DNA of 41,791 nt, from positions 1 through 41,791 of IMG/VR virus record IMGVR_UViG_3300048625_000144. One strand, given 5' to 3'. A program made the translations under genes and the position numbers. The stretch is from a virus. Shown here one piece after another: positions 4,647-23,657 of the stretch (positions are counted from its first letter, which is position 1; each line of letters opens with the position of its first letter). The notes beneath the pieces are model-generated. The model was given only the letters and a program-made list of their open reading frames with translations. It had not been told where the DNA came from and ran no database searches.

Positions 4647-7204
4647 TGGCTATTCATCTGCAACTTAGGCGCGATACCGCTGCCAACTGGACTGCTGCTA
4701 ACCCTACTCTTATGCAGGGCGAGATGGGCATTGAGACCGATACGCTCAAAATCAAAGTTGGAACTGGAACGACTAACTGGGTTAGCCTTGCATACTTTAC
4801 GCAAGGAACTGCAGGTCTATCAGCTTACCAAGTAGCAGTTGCTAATGGCTATGTTGGCACTCAGACTGCTTGGCTAGCTTCTCTTGTTGGCGCAACTGGA
4901 GCTGCCGGAGCTGCCGGAGCTGCCGGAGCTGCCGGAGCTGCCGGAGCTGCCGGAGCTGCAGCTACTATCGCTGCTGGAACTACTACTACTGGAGCTGCCG
5001 GAACTTCAGCAAGCGTTACTAATAGCGGAACTTCTTCAGCCGCTGTATTTAACTTCACCATTCCTCAAGGTGCTGCTGGAGCTACAGGAGCTACTGGTCC
5101 TACAAACTCGCTATCTATTGGAACAGTAACTAATGGTGGCACAGCTGCAGCCACTATCACTGGAACTGCTCCTTCGCAGACTCTAAATCTTACGCTTCCT
5201 ACGGGCGCAACTGGTGCAACTGGAACTACTGGAGCAACTGGTGCTACTGGTCCAGCTAATACTCTAAGTATTGGCACTGTTACTAATGGTGGCTCAGCTG
5301 CAGCAACTATTACTGGCACTGCCCCAGCACAGACTTTGAATCTTACGCTTCCTGCTGGACCGACCGGAGCTACAGGAGCAACTGGACCTATGGGTGCTGG
5401 TGTTCTTGTTGGCGGAACTACTGGGCAGCTTCTTGCTAAAGCATCGGCAACTGACTATGACACTACTTGGGTGAATGCGCCAAGTAGCGAGACTCTTTTA
5501 CTTACTGTAAAAAATAGCACTGGTTCAACAATTCCAAAGGGTGCAGCAGTTTATGTTTCCGGAGCTAACGGAACAAATGTTCTTATCAGTTTAGGTAAGG
5601 CAGATACTGAAGCTACATCAAGCAAGACTCTTGGTCTAACTTCAAACTCTATGATCAATAATGCTGTTGATACTGTTGTAACCCAAGGTCTCCTCAGTGG
5701 ACTAGATACTTCTGCAGCAACTATTGGTGACGCAGTTTGGCTATCTGGAACTACTGCTGGTGGACTTGTTTATGGTTTAGCGAATAAGCCAGTTGCTCCA
5801 ATCCATATGGTTTATATTGGCGCAGTTACGCGAGTATCAAGCACTAATGGTGAGATTTTTGTTCGCGCACAAAATGGTTTTGAGCTTGATGAACTACATG
5901 ATGTTCTAATCACCTCAAAGACTAATGGCGATCTGATTCAGTATGAATCCTCAACTGGACTCTGGAAAAACAAGGCGCAGTCTACTCTTGCTATCGGACC
6001 ATCGCAGGTTACTGGCACTGCAGTTATCACTACTGATAGCCGACTAAGCGATGCTCGCACTCCAACTGGAACTGCTAGTGGAGATCTAACCGGAACTTAT
6101 CCAAACCCAACCCTTGCTGCCACTGCAGTAACTGCTGGTTCTTATACTTCTGCAAACATTACTGTAGATGCCAAAGGTCGAATCACTGCTGCAGCTAATG
6201 GATCCGGTGGCGGTGGTGTTTCACTAACTGTTGCGAACACTTGGTCAGCAACTCAAACCTTTACCCCGGCGGCAACTACTGGTGTGCCAGTAATCACAAA
6301 GGGGCTTGCGTCACAAACTGGTGATCTTCAACAATGGCAGTCATCTGCAGGAACAGTTTTAGCAAAAATAACATCTGCTGGAGCATTCAACGCCTCTACT
6401 ATTGATGCACCAAGTGCAGGAAGCACAGTTGCTTTATTTAGCGCCAATGCTGCTAATGGGGCAATGTTTGGTGGCATTACTGGAACACTTACCTTTGGCA
6501 ACTCAGGAAATGCCAGCAGTCTTATTGATGCTACTTCTACTATCCGTCTAAAAGCTGGAACTGCTTCATCTCTGCCACCATTAGCTATGCAGGCTGGTGT
6601 CCTTGCTTCTGGATCATTCTTTTCACCAGCAACATTTGAATATGATGGAGATGCTGCTTACTTCACTCCTGACAACGCAGCAACTGCTACGACTAATGGT
6701 GGTCGTGCGGTTTTGCAGTCCGCGCACGTTTGGGTTCTAAGCGCCGCAAGGTCTTTGACATCCGCAATAACTGCTCAACCTATTTTCAGCGGCTCTGGTG
6801 CGTTCACTGCGTCTAGCTCAACTACTTACCTCATGGAAATGGATTTGCACATCACTGCGGCTACCTCGGCCACCGTGTCCCTCAGTTTCGCTGGAACTGC
6901 GACTTATACCTCGCTTGTCTGGTCTAGCACTAGCGTCCAAGTGGCTTATGGAAACAGCGGAACTAGCACTACTTATACGGGTTCAGCAGCCAACTCGGTT
7001 TCCGCCGTATTGGTTGCCGGAGCAGGCACTAACCCCAAACACATCAAGGTTTCTGGCGTTGTTCGTGTGAACGCCGCTGGAACCATCATCCCTAACATCG
7101 CTTTCAACGCTGGCCAGACTGGCGCGACTACTGACATTGGTTCGTATTGGAAAATGACACCAATTGGATCAAACACTATGACCACTGTCGGCGCATTCGC
7201 ATAA
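4646..7204 (+). CDS. Collagen-like tail fibre / receptor-binding protein
   Basis: An 852-aa fibre protein. Residues 1-50 ([20 protein letters not shown]...) match the conserved N-terminus of many phage fibres and tropism proteins that docks onto the tail. Residues about 80-250 are collagen-like Gly-Ala-X and GATGATGP runs separated by three small beta-type modules, the last two nearly identical in sequence. A central beta-rich region contains a bacteriophage-lambda-type [12 protein letters not shown]-like sentence ([15 protein letters not shown]). The C-terminal 250 residues are Ser/Thr/Ala-rich and probably form the trimeric receptor-binding head. The start overlaps the upstream stop as TAATG with GGAGG before it. 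It is the first large gene of the rightward block. Confidence 0.85.
4898..4960 (+). repeat. Tandem 9-bp repeat (GGAGCTGCC) in the collagen-like region
   Basis: Six perfect copies of GGAGCTGCC run from 4898 to 4951, followed by a seventh differing in the last base. They encode Gly-Ala-Ala triplets. Perfect repetition at DNA level, with no synonymous drift, indicates recent slippage expansion and probably length variation within the population. Confidence 0.9.
5091..5396 (+). repeat. Two 153-bp imperfect repeat modules in the fibre gene
   Basis: The segment beginning CTACTGGTCC at 5091 recurs at 5244. Both copies encode a 51-residue unit: SIGTVTNGG(T/S)AAATITG, then QTLNLTLP and a Gly-Ala-Thr collagen linker. 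A more diverged third relative lies just upstream ([20 protein letters not shown]). Synonymous changes between the copies show that the duplication is older than the 9-bp expansion. Confidence 0.8.
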
Positions 7205-12788: not shown

Positions 12789-12827
12789 AAATGGGCAGCG
12801 GATTGAGGTGTAATCCGCTGCCCATTT
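12789..12827 (-). terminator. Intrinsic-type hairpin between the OB-fold and primase genes
   Basis: Perfect 16-bp inverted repeat (AAATGGGCAGCGGATT and its complement) with a 7-nt loop, followed on the minus strand by only TTTTC. It lies 7 bp beyond the upstream gene stop and 24 bp before the primase start. It may partly terminate, or stabilise the 3' end, so that the single-strand-binding gene is expressed above primase. Confidence 0.75.
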
Positions 12828-18880: not shown

Positions 18881-19516
18881 TTACTTGGTTTCTTTTAGTG
18901 GTGGGACATCGCCTACTGGTAGCGCGAGGATCTCGGCATCGGTTACATCCCATCCGCGAGCATCAGAGTAGATGCGGCGAATAGCTTGAGTAGTGCCGTA
19001 GTAATACTGTTCAAAGTGCTCACCAGCGACCGATGCGTTGCCGATAAAGGTTAGCTCGGTCTCCGGTGCTCCCTTGAATAGCGAATAGAACTTGAGTTGC
19101 AGATCCATCAGTCGAGTGTGGACTTCACCGCGACCTACCATTTTGTTGATCATTGGTAGATAGGTCACAACATGGTTAGCGGTTGTGATCTTACGCAACT
19201 CAGTAAGTGCGGCGTGCTTATCAGGTGTCATCGATTCATCCATCGGTGCGCGAACTGCATTAGGCGCTTCTGAACGGATGAACATGGATGAACCAGTGGC
19301 TTCTTTACCATGCTCAAGTAGCCATGCTTCGATGTCCGCTAGGCGATACCAGATGGCACTGCTAGACGGGTGAGTGTATTCATCGAACTTGGCTAAGTGG
19401 CGATAGGCATCCCTGCGCCATGATCTTAGAGATGATTTTGAGATGCCAGTTAGCGCTGTAACTTCATCGATCTTGATCAGTGTGCCAAGTTTGGAATCTT
19501 CGATACGGGTAGTCAT
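18881..19516 (-). CDS. Winged-helix/excisionase-type DNA-binding protein
   Basis: A 211-aa protein. Residues 10-70 read as an excisionase/MerR-like HTH: LIKIDEVTALTGISKSSLRSWRRDAYRHL, then AIWYRLADIEAWLLEH. The C-terminal two-thirds is helical and may dimerise. It is the second gene downstream of the intergenic control region at 19801-20046, so it could regulate the early operon or load at the nearby dyad. The next gene looks like a smaller HTH relative. Confidence 0.65.
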   Translation of the reverse strand: MTTRIEDSKLGTLIKIDEVTALTGISKSSLRSWRRDAYRHLAKFDEYTHPSSSAIWYRLADIEAWLLEHGKEATGSSMFIRSEAPNAVRAPMDESMTPDKHAALTELRKITTANHVVTYLPMINKMVGRGEVHTRLMDLQLKFYSLFKGAPETELTFIGNASVAGEHFEQYYYGTTQAIRRIYSDARGWDVTDAEILALPVGDVPPLKETK

Positions 19517-19518
19517 GT

Positions 19519-19800
19519 TTAGTGTGTCTCCTTAGTTGGGTCGGATGGTCGGAATACATAATCGCATTCAATGTCAATGTCTATGGCTTTAGAAAGCTCC
19601 AAGATCTCATTCAAGTCGAACCAAACTCCAGTAGTTCCAAAAGCTGTAAACGCTGTTGCCTTGGCGTAACTAAAGTTCCTTTTTCTGCTCCATCCATTTA
19701 GTTCATCGAGTGTTTTGTTGAGCAATTTTGCCGCTAAAGGTGCGCGGATGAAAGCTCGGTGATCTGATGTCGCTATGGCGGATAGTTCGGTGTTTGGCAT
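19519..19800 (-). CDS. Small HTH-like protein, 93 aa
   Basis: Its body reads AAKLLNKTLDELNGWSRKRNF, then GVWFDLNEILELSKAIDI. This is the same order of elements (helix-turn-helix, then a W/F-based wing and final helix) as the adjacent 211-aa protein. It is the first gene downstream of the large intergenic region, so it is a good candidate regulator. Its C-terminus is acidic. DNA binding is inferred, not proven. Confidence 0.55.
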   Translation of the reverse strand: MPNTELSAIATSDHRAFIRAPLAAKLLNKTLDELNGWSRKRNFSYAKATAFTAFGTTGVWFDLNEILELSKAIDIDIECDYVFRPSDPTKETH

Positions 19801-19811
19801 GTTTTTCCCTT

Positions 19812-19829
19812 CTGCTCTAATCTTACTAA
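19812..19829 (-). promoter_or_regulatory. Early promoter/operator motif, copy 1
   Basis: Plus-strand CTGCTCTAATCTTACTAA matches 21760-21777 at 15 of 18 positions. On the minus strand it contains TAAGAT, a plausible -10, about 20 nt before the start at 19800. A nearby inverted partial copy (TAGAGCAAA, 19855-19863) flanks it. Confidence 0.5.
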
Positions 19830-19986
19830 GACTCTATTGGGAAGTTGGTAAAACTAGAGCAAACTGATGTTTTTTGTTGTAGTGGTTGAAAAGGTAGCAT
19901 ACTTTTTTGCTAAAAAAAGTTTTATGTTAGTTTTTTTGAATACTTTTTTCAATAAAAACTTTTTGCTAGTCGGGCTATATAGGAAT

Positions 19987-20036
19987 CAAGTTAGAGTTAG
20001 TAATCCTAGAGCTCTAAGAATACTAACTCTAACTTG
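19987..20036. repeat. 50-bp co-centred double palindrome (candidate origin or operator)
   Basis: Arms of 16 bp (CAAGTTAGAGTTAGTA at 19987-20002 and its exact complement at 20021-20036) surround a central perfect palindrome TAGAGCTCTA (20007-20016). Outer and inner symmetry axes coincide at 20011/20012, with 4-nt non-palindromic spacers on each side. TTAGAG/CTCTAA is repeated within it. It is not followed by a T-tract, so it is not a normal terminator. It suits an initiator or dimeric regulator site. Confidence 0.85.
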
Positions 20037-20046
20037 CTCTATAGGG

Positions 20047-20181
20047 TTAGCGACCTTCAAAAGCGTTATCGGCTTTTCCAGTCGGGTCGAGCGCACTATG
20101 CGCTGGGCATCCGCATCTATCGCATGCGGAATCCGGCGTGCCTATAAAGATCTCTTTGCACCATGCACATTCTCTGATCAT
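20047..20181 (-). CDS. Zinc-ribbon microprotein, 44 aa
   Basis: Begins MIRECAWCKEIF and contains CDRCGCPAH, giving a C-x2-C-x13-C-x2-C ribbon. The start overlaps the preceding stop by 4 nt (ATGA), so it is translationally coupled. It ends just beside the double palindrome. It may be a regulator or host-factor-binding peptide, but no function is established. Confidence 0.65.
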   Translation of the reverse strand: MIRECAWCKEIFIGTPDSACDRCGCPAHSALDPTGKADNAFEGR

Positions 20182-20666
20182 GCGCTAGCCCAGAGATCCG
20201 TAGTTGCGTCATCGTTTAGCATGCCACCTTGAATCAGACTTGCTTCAAGATCTGCGTCAAGCTCAACATGGTAGAGAGGCAGTGACTTGAGCCATGCGAG
20301 GATGGGCTCTGGCGGGCTAGTCCAAGTGCTAGCATCCTGCCACTCATCCGATTCATTCCAATAGTCCACAACTAGCTTCATTGCGTCATGTCTGCCGTTT
20401 GCTAGATCTTCAAGGATCTGCCTATCGGTGAACAGATGCTCAGGGTTATCCCAATACTCAGAATCAAGTGCGTAGCGGATGGCTTCGGCATGCTCAGGTC
20501 GATTCATGAACAGACTTAGGGATAGAGGCGAACCTTTGTAACTATGCGTCAAGTAGATCGGGAATCCATGAACATCGATGTTGCCAGTCCATGTCAAGGG
20601 ATAAGCGGTTATGTTTACAGTTCCATTGAATGCGTAAACATTCAGGTCGTAGTTATTCCAGCGCAT
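20178..20666 (-). CDS. Hypothetical protein, 162 aa
   Basis: Beta-rich N-terminus (NLNVYAFNGTVNITAYPLTW-like pattern), then an acidic helical C-terminus with several Trp and the ending DLWASA. A good AAGGAAGATCAAC site precedes the ATG. No family recognised. It lies between the clamp homologue and the zinc-ribbon microprotein in the same leftward unit. Confidence 0.65.
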   Translation of the reverse strand: MRWNNYDLNVYAFNGTVNITAYPLTWTGNIDVHGFPIYLTHSYKGSPLSLSLFMNRPEHAEAIRYALDSEYWDNPEHLFTDRQILEDLANGRHDAMKLVVDYWNESDEWQDASTWTSPPEPILAWLKSLPLYHVELDADLEASLIQGGMLNDDATTDLWASA

Positions 20667-20677
20667 GTTGATCTTCC

Positions 20678-21280
20678 TTATCTAACGATGTTTGGTTGGA
20701 GTAGTACCTTGAATTCAGGGCAACCTAGGGCAGTGATGATGAACGGGGCAGGTCGGTCGCTAGTGCGAGTAGTCTCAGTGAAAACTAAGGTCTCTACCTT
20801 TTTGCCATTGCGGTCGATGACTTTACTGATGTCGGCTAGATGCTTTACCGATAGCGCAAAAGCTTTGGCAGGTTGCTCAGGGATGTCACCAGTTGGGATG
20901 TAACTGGCAACCTTAGTCATGAATTCAGAGTCCAAACTGAATGCGCTAATGAACGATGAACCAACATAAGTTGCCCTTAGTTCTTGCTCATTGAGATCAA
21001 AATCGATGCCATGTCCACGAGAATCCTTTGGCAACTTGATGGCGGTTAGCCACTTAGCCATTGCGGGAGTGATGCCGAATTCGATGGAATCGGTTTCATC
21101 AGTGTCGATGTTTTCGGTAGTCCAAGTGCCGATTTTGTAGCGGTCTGTAGCGATGGCAAAAGCTTTACCATCCTCGATGCGGACATGGATGTTTGCCATG
21201 CGCTCCATGTCTTTGTCGGTGAACGAGATCAAACTGGCGATTGAACGGCAGTCGTTAGCGCTAATGGTGAATGTAGTCAT
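20678..21280 (-). CDS. DNA polymerase sliding-clamp (DnaN-like) homologue
   Basis: About 200 aa, roughly half the size of bacterial DnaN. It shows clamp-like repeats: IHVRIEDGKAFAIATDRYKIGTWT, then FDLNEQELRATYVGSSFISAFSLDSEF, and ends PFIITALGCPEFKVLLQPNIVR, close to the 'YLIMPVRL' ending of beta clamps. It would tether a polymerase to DNA. The start at 21280 is chosen because AAAAGGATAAAAGAATC precedes it, and a longer frame would overlap the upstream gene by 107 bp. With only about two clamp domains it might form a larger oligomer or bind the host clamp loader. Confidence 0.65.
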   Translation of the reverse strand: MTTFTISANDCRSIASLISFTDKDMERMANIHVRIEDGKAFAIATDRYKIGTWTTENIDTDETDSIEFGITPAMAKWLTAIKLPKDSRGHGIDFDLNEQELRATYVGSSFISAFSLDSEFMTKVASYIPTGDIPEQPAKAFALSVKHLADISKVIDRNGKKVETLVFTETTRTSDRPAPFIITALGCPEFKVLLQPNIVR

Positions 21281-21314
21281 GATTCTTTTATCCTTTTCGG
21301 TTGGTTGGGTTGGT

Positions 21315-21713
21315 TTAGTGGTCGGCGAAAGCGTAGCCGTTTTCAGAGATGGTGAATTCATAGCAAAGATTCCTATCCCAAGATGACTGCCAGTCGATAA
21401 CCATCCATGATGGAATTTCACCCATTTCGGTCATGTAGTTTTCGGCAAAGTATTCGGCAAACTTTGCTCCGCCATCAAGTCCGTCAAAGCCAGATCCATA
21501 GTTAGTTTCGCAAGCGCTAGCGATCCAGTTTGCTAGGTGTTCACGCAACATGGCTTCAGTGGTAAGCCATTCATCGTTAGCGCCTTTTGAGATGTAACCA
21601 AAAACCTCGATGTAACCAAAAACCATGTCTAGATCAACGACATCTAAACAAAGTTCTTCTGCAACAGATTCGATTAGTTCGGCTTCAAAATAGCCGTATT
21701 GGGTAGTAGCCAT
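21315..21713 (-). CDS. ArdA-like acidic antirestriction protein (probable)
   Basis: A 132-aa, highly acidic protein. The segment FAEYFAENYMTEMGEIPSWM, then VIDWQSSWDRNLCYEFTISENGYAFAD, resembles the C-terminal domain of ArdA antirestriction proteins, which mimic B-form DNA and block type I restriction enzymes. The N-terminal domains of full ArdA are shortened or diverged, so it could be a related DNA-mimic. It is first in its unit behind a recognisable promoter, fitting early expression against host defence. The ribosome site is AAGGAG. Confidence 0.5.
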   Translation of the reverse strand: MATTQYGYFEAELIESVAEELCLDVVDLDMVFGYIEVFGYISKGANDEWLTTEAMLREHLANWIASACETNYGSGFDGLDGGAKFAEYFAENYMTEMGEIPSWMVIDWQSSWDRNLCYEFTISENGYAFADH

Positions 21714-21759: not shown

Positions 21760-21777
21760 CTGCTCTAACATTACCAA
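21760..21777 (-). promoter_or_regulatory. Early promoter/operator motif, copy 2
   Basis: Plus-strand CTGCTCTAACATTACCAA; on the minus strand a -35 TTGCGT (21791-21796), exactly 17 nt spacing and a -10 TAATGT (21768-21773). The predicted start is near 21761, about 48 nt before the ArdA-like gene. The -10 half is shared with the 19812 copy. Confidence 0.6.
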
Positions 21778-21829: not shown

Positions 21830-22060
21830 TAACGATGCCTAACGATGCTTTTGGCAGGTTAGGGCTAGCCAACCCGCCCATCGCTTGCACAATTTTTTGA
21901 TCTCACTGCCTGCAACGATGTCTAGCAAGCTCCGCAACTGAGCTAGCCCTGCCAGATCAAGCCGAATCAAGCTAAACGGGCATAGGAGCTCCGTAGGCGG
22001 CACAAGCCCCGCAACTGGGCACACATTCCATCCGTCACCTGAAAAGGCTTCAGCGAGCGC
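21830..22060 (-). other. Noncoding, repeat-rich stretch upstream of the ArdA-like gene
   Basis: About 230 bp without a convincing long gene. It contains tandem TAACGATGC (21830-21838, 21840-21848), a 15-bp near-direct repeat CAAGCYCCGCAACTG (21926-21940, 22003-22017), and a long-range stem GGGCTAGC / GCTAGCCC (21862-21869 with 21942-21949). A micro-ORF begins at 22031. The structure may be an untranslated leader or small RNA, but this is uncertain. Confidence 0.4.
21972..22031 (-). CDS. Cys-rich micro-ORF A (19 aa)
   Basis: Reads MECVPSCGACAAYGAPMPV. Its start lies inside a 20-bp element shared with two other sites, in which AGGTGA precedes ATG GAA TGT GTG. Very short; translation is unproven. 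It may be a leader peptide or a decayed copy of the longer relative at 22827. Confidence 0.35.
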   Translation of the reverse strand: MECVPSCGACAAYGAPMPV

Positions 22061-22126
22061 CTAGAGGCTGTTTAGGCTATGCCTGCCCTGATCGCGTCAC
22101 ACACCACACACATCACACATTCCATT
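22061..22126 (-). CDS. Cys-rich micro-ORF B (21 aa)
   Basis: Begins MECVMCVVCDAIRAG, with Cys at positions 3, 6 and 9. The ribosome site AAGGTGA is 4 nt before the ATG. The 28 bp covering ribosome site and first codons match copy C at 22810-22837 with one mismatch. It lies just downstream of a strong terminator, so it would open a new transcript. Confidence 0.35.
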
Positions 22127-22136
22127 CGTCACCTTG
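22109..22136 (-). repeat. 28-bp repeat element (copy B; copies A 22021-22040, C 22810-22837)
   Basis: Core ACACATTCCATCCGTCACCT (plus strand) occurs exactly at 22021-22040 and 22817-22836, and with one change at 22116-22135. Copies B and C extend to 28 bp with a single mismatch. On the minus strand the core is a ribosome site plus ATG GAA TGT GTG. A weaker relative sharing CCGTCACCT is at 23565-23584. Confidence 0.85.
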
Positions 22137-22748: not shown

Positions 22749-22827
22749 TACTGATTCCTTTTCGGTTGTGTAGCCGAGTGGCTACGAGATAAGTTTTGCA
22801 AACGGCGCAACACATCACACATTCCAT
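22732..22827 (-). CDS. Cys-rich micro-ORF C (31 aa)
   Basis: Begins MECVMCCAVCKTYLVATR, with four Cys in the first ten residues. It uses AAGGTGA four bases before the ATG. It shares its ribosome site and first codons with micro-ORFs A and B. It ends inside the next gene, as expected for a coupled leader peptide or a tiny zinc protein. Length and location make translation plausible but unproven. Confidence 0.45.
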   Translation of the reverse strand: MECVMCCAVCKTYLVATRLHNRKGISNENPN

Positions 22828-22855
22828 CCGTCACCTTATATAAAAAGAAAAAAAG

Positions 22856-23471: not shown

Positions 23472-23657
23472 TTTTTGCTCCTTGGTTGGTGGTGCTATTT
23501 TGTTGATACCCCGTCAGCGCTCGGTGGCTGACAAGGACTACGCTACGCTCATCGATGTTGTGCCGAACTTTCTAGCCGTCACCTATCATTAGCCACCCCC
23601 CTCCAGAAATTGCATTTGAAACACCTGTCTAGCATCTATGCCTGCTAAACTCTCAGT
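23472..23657. promoter_or_regulatory. Divergent control region between early gene and repressor-like gene
   Basis: 186 bp without a gene. It contains a small hairpin GTCAGC-GCTCGGTG-GCTGAC (23512-23531), a weak relative of the 20-bp repeat sharing CCGTCACCT (23565-23584), and an extended -10 TGCTAAACT (23643-23651) ending 7 nt before the ATG at 23658. No ribosome site precedes that ATG, so the repressor message is probably leaderless. The leftward promoter is not clear. Confidence 0.5.

Follow-up and report, generated by a model that had tools for sequence, protein, structure and literature searches.

The window analyzed here, i.e., the whole 41,791-nucleotide viral record IMGVR_UViG_3300048625_000144, ends in an exact 127-b terminal repeat, which indicates a circular assembly of 41664 b. 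It is the genome of a tailed phage, whose capsid protein is 36-37% identical to the capsids of Arthrobacter phage Jasmine and Microbacterium phage Shocker. We read it as an actinobacteriophage (actinophage) of the group with this Arthrobacter/Microbacterium-type capsid, and its freshwater origin we infer from the kind of its relatives. Protein profile scans identified a D5-type prim-pol/SF3 protein, in agreement with the prim-pol/SF3 helicase that the first-pass annotation had recognized. Within the gene for a collagen-like tail protein starting with an Mtd N-terminal domain, a 9-bp tandem repeat (GGAGCTGCC) is present at 4898-4958, while the product of 20678-21421 (-) has, by eye, the look of a DNA polymerase sliding clamp, with no sequence match in Pfam or PDB.

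Four related contigs were compared with the window: G1 (3300046328_000317), G2 (3300022746_000035; ~85% identical to the window overall), G3 (3300022746_000031; only ~70% DNA identity, where alignable), and G4 (3300022748_000291). Two more distant ones, L046 and L047, were reached through their prim-pol homologues (62% identity). The prim-pol alignment took in a third contig, L048, which has no HTH homologue in the stretch examined, and the comparison of dyads thus covers L046 and L047. No study on gene control or on the start of replication in this freshwater actinophage group was found.

The locus under study (Table 1) comprises a two-gene HTH operon, its leader, an A/T-rich tract, and a long dyad. 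The 211-aa product of the operon matches HTH_17 below the Pfam cut-off and PHROG 66, annotated as 'excisionase and transcriptional regulator', with an E-value of 1e-5; by profile and fold, its HTH is also weakly MerR/CarH-like. The AlphaFold model (mean pLDDT 67, no significant fold match) is too weak for a fold assignment, and a tblastn search of the named phages of INPHARED with this protein gave no matches. The 93-aa protein is weakly similar to the 211-aa one (E = 0.005). The C-terminal tail of the latter, LPxGDVPPLKET, is almost identical in proteins that share only 31% identity overall and is absent from the G3 homologue; it is probably a conserved contact site, judging from this conservation.

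Table 1. Positions of the features discussed, in coordinates of the window.
Feature	Position	Strand	Remarks
Prim-pol hairpin	12789-12827	-	perfect 16-bp stem, 7-nt loop; z -7.95
211-aa protein	18881..19516	-	N-terminal HTH_17/excisionase-like wHTH; proposed dyad-binding protein
93-aa putative HTH protein	19519..19800	-	first gene of the operon
Half-site copy 4	19814..19829	-	TTAGTAAGATTAGAGC; 13 bp ahead of the 93-aa gene's ATG; forms a divergent pair with copy 3
Half-site copy 3	19845..19860	+	TTGGTAAAACTAGAGC; HTH-operon leader
Putative -10 region of the HTH operon	19894..19902	-	GTATGCTAC; between the putative operator pairs; prediction
A/T-tract DNA	19898..19966	.	separates the putative promoter from the distal dyad; belongs to the window's lowest-GC stretch
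Conserved block around the dyad	19975..20056	.	reaches past either end of the palindrome (CTATATAGGAAT ... CTCTATAGGGTTAGCGACCT)
Distal dyad	19987..20036	.	50 bp; 16-bp perfect outer arms, 10-bp inner palindrome
Outer arms of the dyad	19987-20002 / 20021-20036		CAAGTTAGAGTTAGTA / TACTAACTCTAACTTG
Inner palindrome	20007-20016		TAGAGCTCTA; axis 20011/20012
Half-site copy 1	19997..20012	+	TTAGTAATCCTAGAGC; in the dyad
Half-site copy 2	20011..20026	-	TTAGTATTCTTAGAGC; in the dyad; convergent with copy 1, 2-bp overlap
Half-site copy 5	21762..21777	-	TTGGTAATGTTAGAGC; upstream of the gene starting at 21713

The geometry of the dyad is exactly as first described, with the outer repeat and the inner palindrome sharing one axis and separated by equal 4-nt spacers (ATCC and AGAA). 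When every axis of the window was scored with 25-bp arms, 23 of the 25 positions of the dyad paired, as compared with 18 for the runner-up, a terminator, and with at most 18 in any of 60 dinucleotide shuffles of the whole window. Conservation in relatives, named by the first-pass annotation as a check, was found: the dyad is the best palindrome also of G1, G2, G3, and G4. The conserved block around it has hardly any differences in G1 and G2; over the whole of 20040-20110, in contrast, identity with G2 is ~50%. In G3, the core TCCTATAACTCTAAGAA is kept and the arms differ yet mostly pair; likewise, the G3 homologue of the 211-aa protein keeps the HTH domain (~62% identity with the window) and not the C-terminal part. 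Outside these relatives, nothing resembling the dyad was found among the best palindromes of the whole Jasmine, Shocker, and DS1 genomes, a pattern search with a single arm returned, apart from two relatives, 11 unrelated chance loci, a search with the proximal site returned three such loci, and an Rfam search gave no match.

The dyad and the HTH-operon leader, when compared, proved to have a 16-bp half-site in common, TTAGTAANNNTAGAGC. This half-site appears to be the functional unit, the dyad then being two convergent copies of it, and the initial division into outer arm, spacer, and inner palindrome cuts across this unit. To avoid circularity, the probe was built as a consensus of the two dyad halves alone. 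It found two matches in the 170-bp leader, where permuted probes gave a mean of 0.006 and none of 1000 reached two; genome-wide outside the dyad, two copies with no more than two mismatches were detected, against 0.09 for permuted probes (0.5% of permutations). The convergent pair of the dyad and the divergent pair of the leader lie on either side of a conserved promoter-like block (the promoter itself being predicted), and their axes are 174.5 bp apart. The same four half-sites, in the same order and orientation, are present in G1 and G2, where copy 5 carries 2-3 mismatches; in G3, the proximal pair is not recognizable with the window motif.

In L046 and L047, the best and joint-best palindrome, respectively, pairs at 16 of 25 positions, which alone is not above chance level. 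It is located ~225 bp upstream of the homologue of the 211-aa HTH protein (31-32% identical), which ties the dyad to the HTH gene and not to the prim-pol gene; a dyad at the gene of the presumed binding protein is thus found in the window, G1, G2, G3, L046, and L047. Upstream of this homologue, the arrangement -> <- ... <- -> is kept in both contigs with a different half-site, YTACTMATCTRCTC, placed in L046 at 666+, 682-, 822-, and 842+, i.e., convergent, then divergent, with the gene downstream. As YTACTMATCTRCTC was derived from the L046 sequence itself, its count is descriptive; in an independent test, the 20-bp stretch common to dyad and leader of L046 was better than in any of 200 shuffled leaders. 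Since the architecture is kept and its sequence changes as the HTH protein diverges, a protein-DNA pair is indicated.

Since the half-sites of the dyad recur in the leader and their arrangement is kept at the HTH gene in L046 and L047, it seems rather probable that the two-gene (93 aa + 211 aa) HTH operon has a bipartite autoregulatory operator, with the dyad as its distal half. From these sites and their linkage to the HTH gene, we infer the binding protein, the promoter, the looping, and the repression as follows. The binding protein would be a wHTH protein, the 211-aa product being the likeliest, and it would occupy the 16-bp half-sites at the convergent dyad pair and at the divergent leader pair, ~175 bp apart, with the presumed promoter between them. 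Occupation of both pairs, with the A-tract DNA probably looped out between them, would adjust the level of the operon (autoregulation), and through copy 5 this control would extend to the gene starting at 21713. The axis-to-axis spacing differs between the window (174.5 bp) and L046 (158 bp), and so does the helical phase, which lends no support to looping.

The putative -10 element is invariant in the window, G1, and G2, and has no good -35. Identity with G2 amounts to 93% in the proximal block, 88% in the -10/leader block, and 90% in the dyad (98% between G1 and G2) despite its flip described below, and it drops to 70% in the A-tract and 50% in the stretch upstream. With 70% identity against 90% for the dyad, it is the composition of the A-tract rather than its sequence that is kept. 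The adjoining T/A tracts with repeated TACTTTTTT, pointed out in the initial description, are indeed present, but their sequence is poorly conserved and the repeat is not kept in G2.

It could be argued that the half-site is not an operator but a promoter element for host RNA polymerase together with a phage activator. The proximal copy and the copy at 21762 contain the -10-like TAAGAT and TAATGT and end near a plausible transcription start, the two forward near-gene copies precede start codons by 13 and 48 bp, and TTGCGT is found 17 bp upstream of TAATGT at 21762. A promoter, however, needs neither the convergent pair of the dyad nor the divergent pair of the leader, the proximal copy is without a good -35 nearby, and sigma-70 sites within 19400-20700 are no more numerous than expected by chance, so that we regard this explanation as quite improbable. 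Long dyads are also known from terminators, attachment sites, telomere-resolvase sites, and partition centromeres, and each of these was considered. An intrinsic terminator consists of a G+C-rich stem and a T-run; the dyad is free of a T-run, as had been noted at first reading, and the terminator scan of 19400-20700 was empty. Among the proteins scanned there was no integrase, protelomerase, or ParA, as would be expected for the other three, and it is very hard to believe that the dyad is an element of any of these four kinds.

Another feature of the dyad is its inverted core. The core between the 16-bp arms (20003-20020) is the exact reverse complement of that of G1, with the flanks in the same order, and it is inverted relative to the flanks in comparison with both near relatives, G1 and G2. 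Four symmetric substitutions would be a less simple explanation than a single inversion, and a core can be inverted at short inverted repeats by template switching or by the resolution of a cruciform. The alignment suggests a hairpin-type event in this lineage, without implying a function. An inversion that arose artefactually during assembly or amplification of one record is possible, although it is less expected because the 127-b end overlap suggests a word length well above the 50 b of the dyad.

The first-pass annotation had taken the dyad for a candidate replication origin. The dyad proved real and conserved, with an AT-rich flank, but its half-sites recur before the HTH operon and, 1.7 kb away, before another early gene, which fits the outcome foreseen there as fatal, a dyad that is only an operator. 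Nevertheless, an origin is possible: a HTH initiator or the prim-pol/SF3 protein might bind the dyad, perhaps as an extruded hairpin, with the A/T tract melted and the helicase loaded, and the leader sites might serve autoregulation of the initiator, as in plasmid Rep proteins. Plasmid initiator proteins bind both the origin and their own promoter, so that shared half-sites are compatible with an origin too. The 100 bp next to the best dyad are the lowest in GC content of the window and of G2, and in G3 they rank second lowest, although promoters are AT-rich too. The phage encodes the D5-type prim-pol/SF3 protein, the inverted core implies that hairpin-type events occur at the dyad, and plasmid pRN1, whose replication protein has the same domains, needs a 100-nt stem-loop, as also proposed for phages (PMC4234260).

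On the other side, it is the HTH gene to which the dyad is linked, the prim-pol gene being 7 kb away, and the folding energy of the dyad in G3 is unremarkable. GC skew, suggested as a check, did not single out the dyad: cumulative extremes were found at differing distances from it in the window, G2, and G3, and gene orientation confounds them. Moreover, a rival site exists. Relative to GC, no other fold of the window is as strong as the hairpin that separates the prim-pol start from the gene before it, and a hairpin is present at the same place in all five genomes (the window, G2, G3, L046, and L047), with similar or, in G3 and L046/L047, diverged sequence. It is followed by T4 in the window, T5 in G3, and no T-run in L046; thus, it may be a weak terminator, and it is a candidate terminator, attenuator, or alternative origin, competing with the dyad for the latter role. 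The origin reading is therefore less well supported than the operator reading, nothing tested favours an origin specifically, and we hold it to be a doubtful, if real, possibility. More speculative still, and in our opinion unlikely, is a dual element serving as operator and origin, bound by a wHTH initiator unrelated to the known ones, with a core that flips via hairpin extrusion or copying during prim-pol/SF3 replication.

The early region contains one more repeated element, GGTGACGGATGGAATGTGTG, found in intergenic gaps at 22020-22039, 22114-22133, and 22816-22835, all on the (-) strand; the element is diverged in its copy near 23584 and in G1 and G2, and G3 has GGGGACGGCTGGAATGTGCG twice. 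These repeats are candidate promoter, stoperator-like, or iteron-like elements.

In summary, the dyad represents a known general type of regulatory element, is well conserved, and has a new motif, and the operator reading provides a precise binding-motif candidate and a candidate regulator for the freshwater actinophage group. The gal and lac operators are separated palindromic operators that flank a promoter and act by looping. The phage locus resembles them in two separated palindromic operators around a (predicted) promoter, with one half-site common to both. It differs in that the distal pair is convergent, the proximal pair divergent, and the spacing unequal, as well as in its protein, a wHTH of the excisionase/MerR type and not LacI, and looping is putative here. 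In phage 186, Apl is an excisionase-type wHTH protein that also regulates early promoters (PMC7498355). The likeness lies in a small excisionase-kind phage DNA-binding protein at early promoters, which in our case is a prediction; the sites of Apl are direct repeats one helix turn apart, whereas those of the phage studied here are inverted pairs, and no integrase was seen among its proteins scanned. The third system is pRN1, the replication of which needs a stem-loop that measures ~100 nt, has a large loop, and lies just downstream of the gene encoding the prim-pol/SF3/wH replication protein ORF904 (PMC4234260). The dyad, in contrast, lies 7 kb upstream of the prim-pol gene, is perfect-armed, and has half-sites recurring in a gene leader, and the conserved prim-pol hairpin, unlike the pRN1 stem-loop, sits upstream of its gene. 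What the phage shares with pRN1 is the class of replication protein and a large dyad without strict sequence conservation (PMC4234260), and if the dyad were also an origin, the stem-loop origins of prim-pol/SF3 replicons would extend to actinophages.
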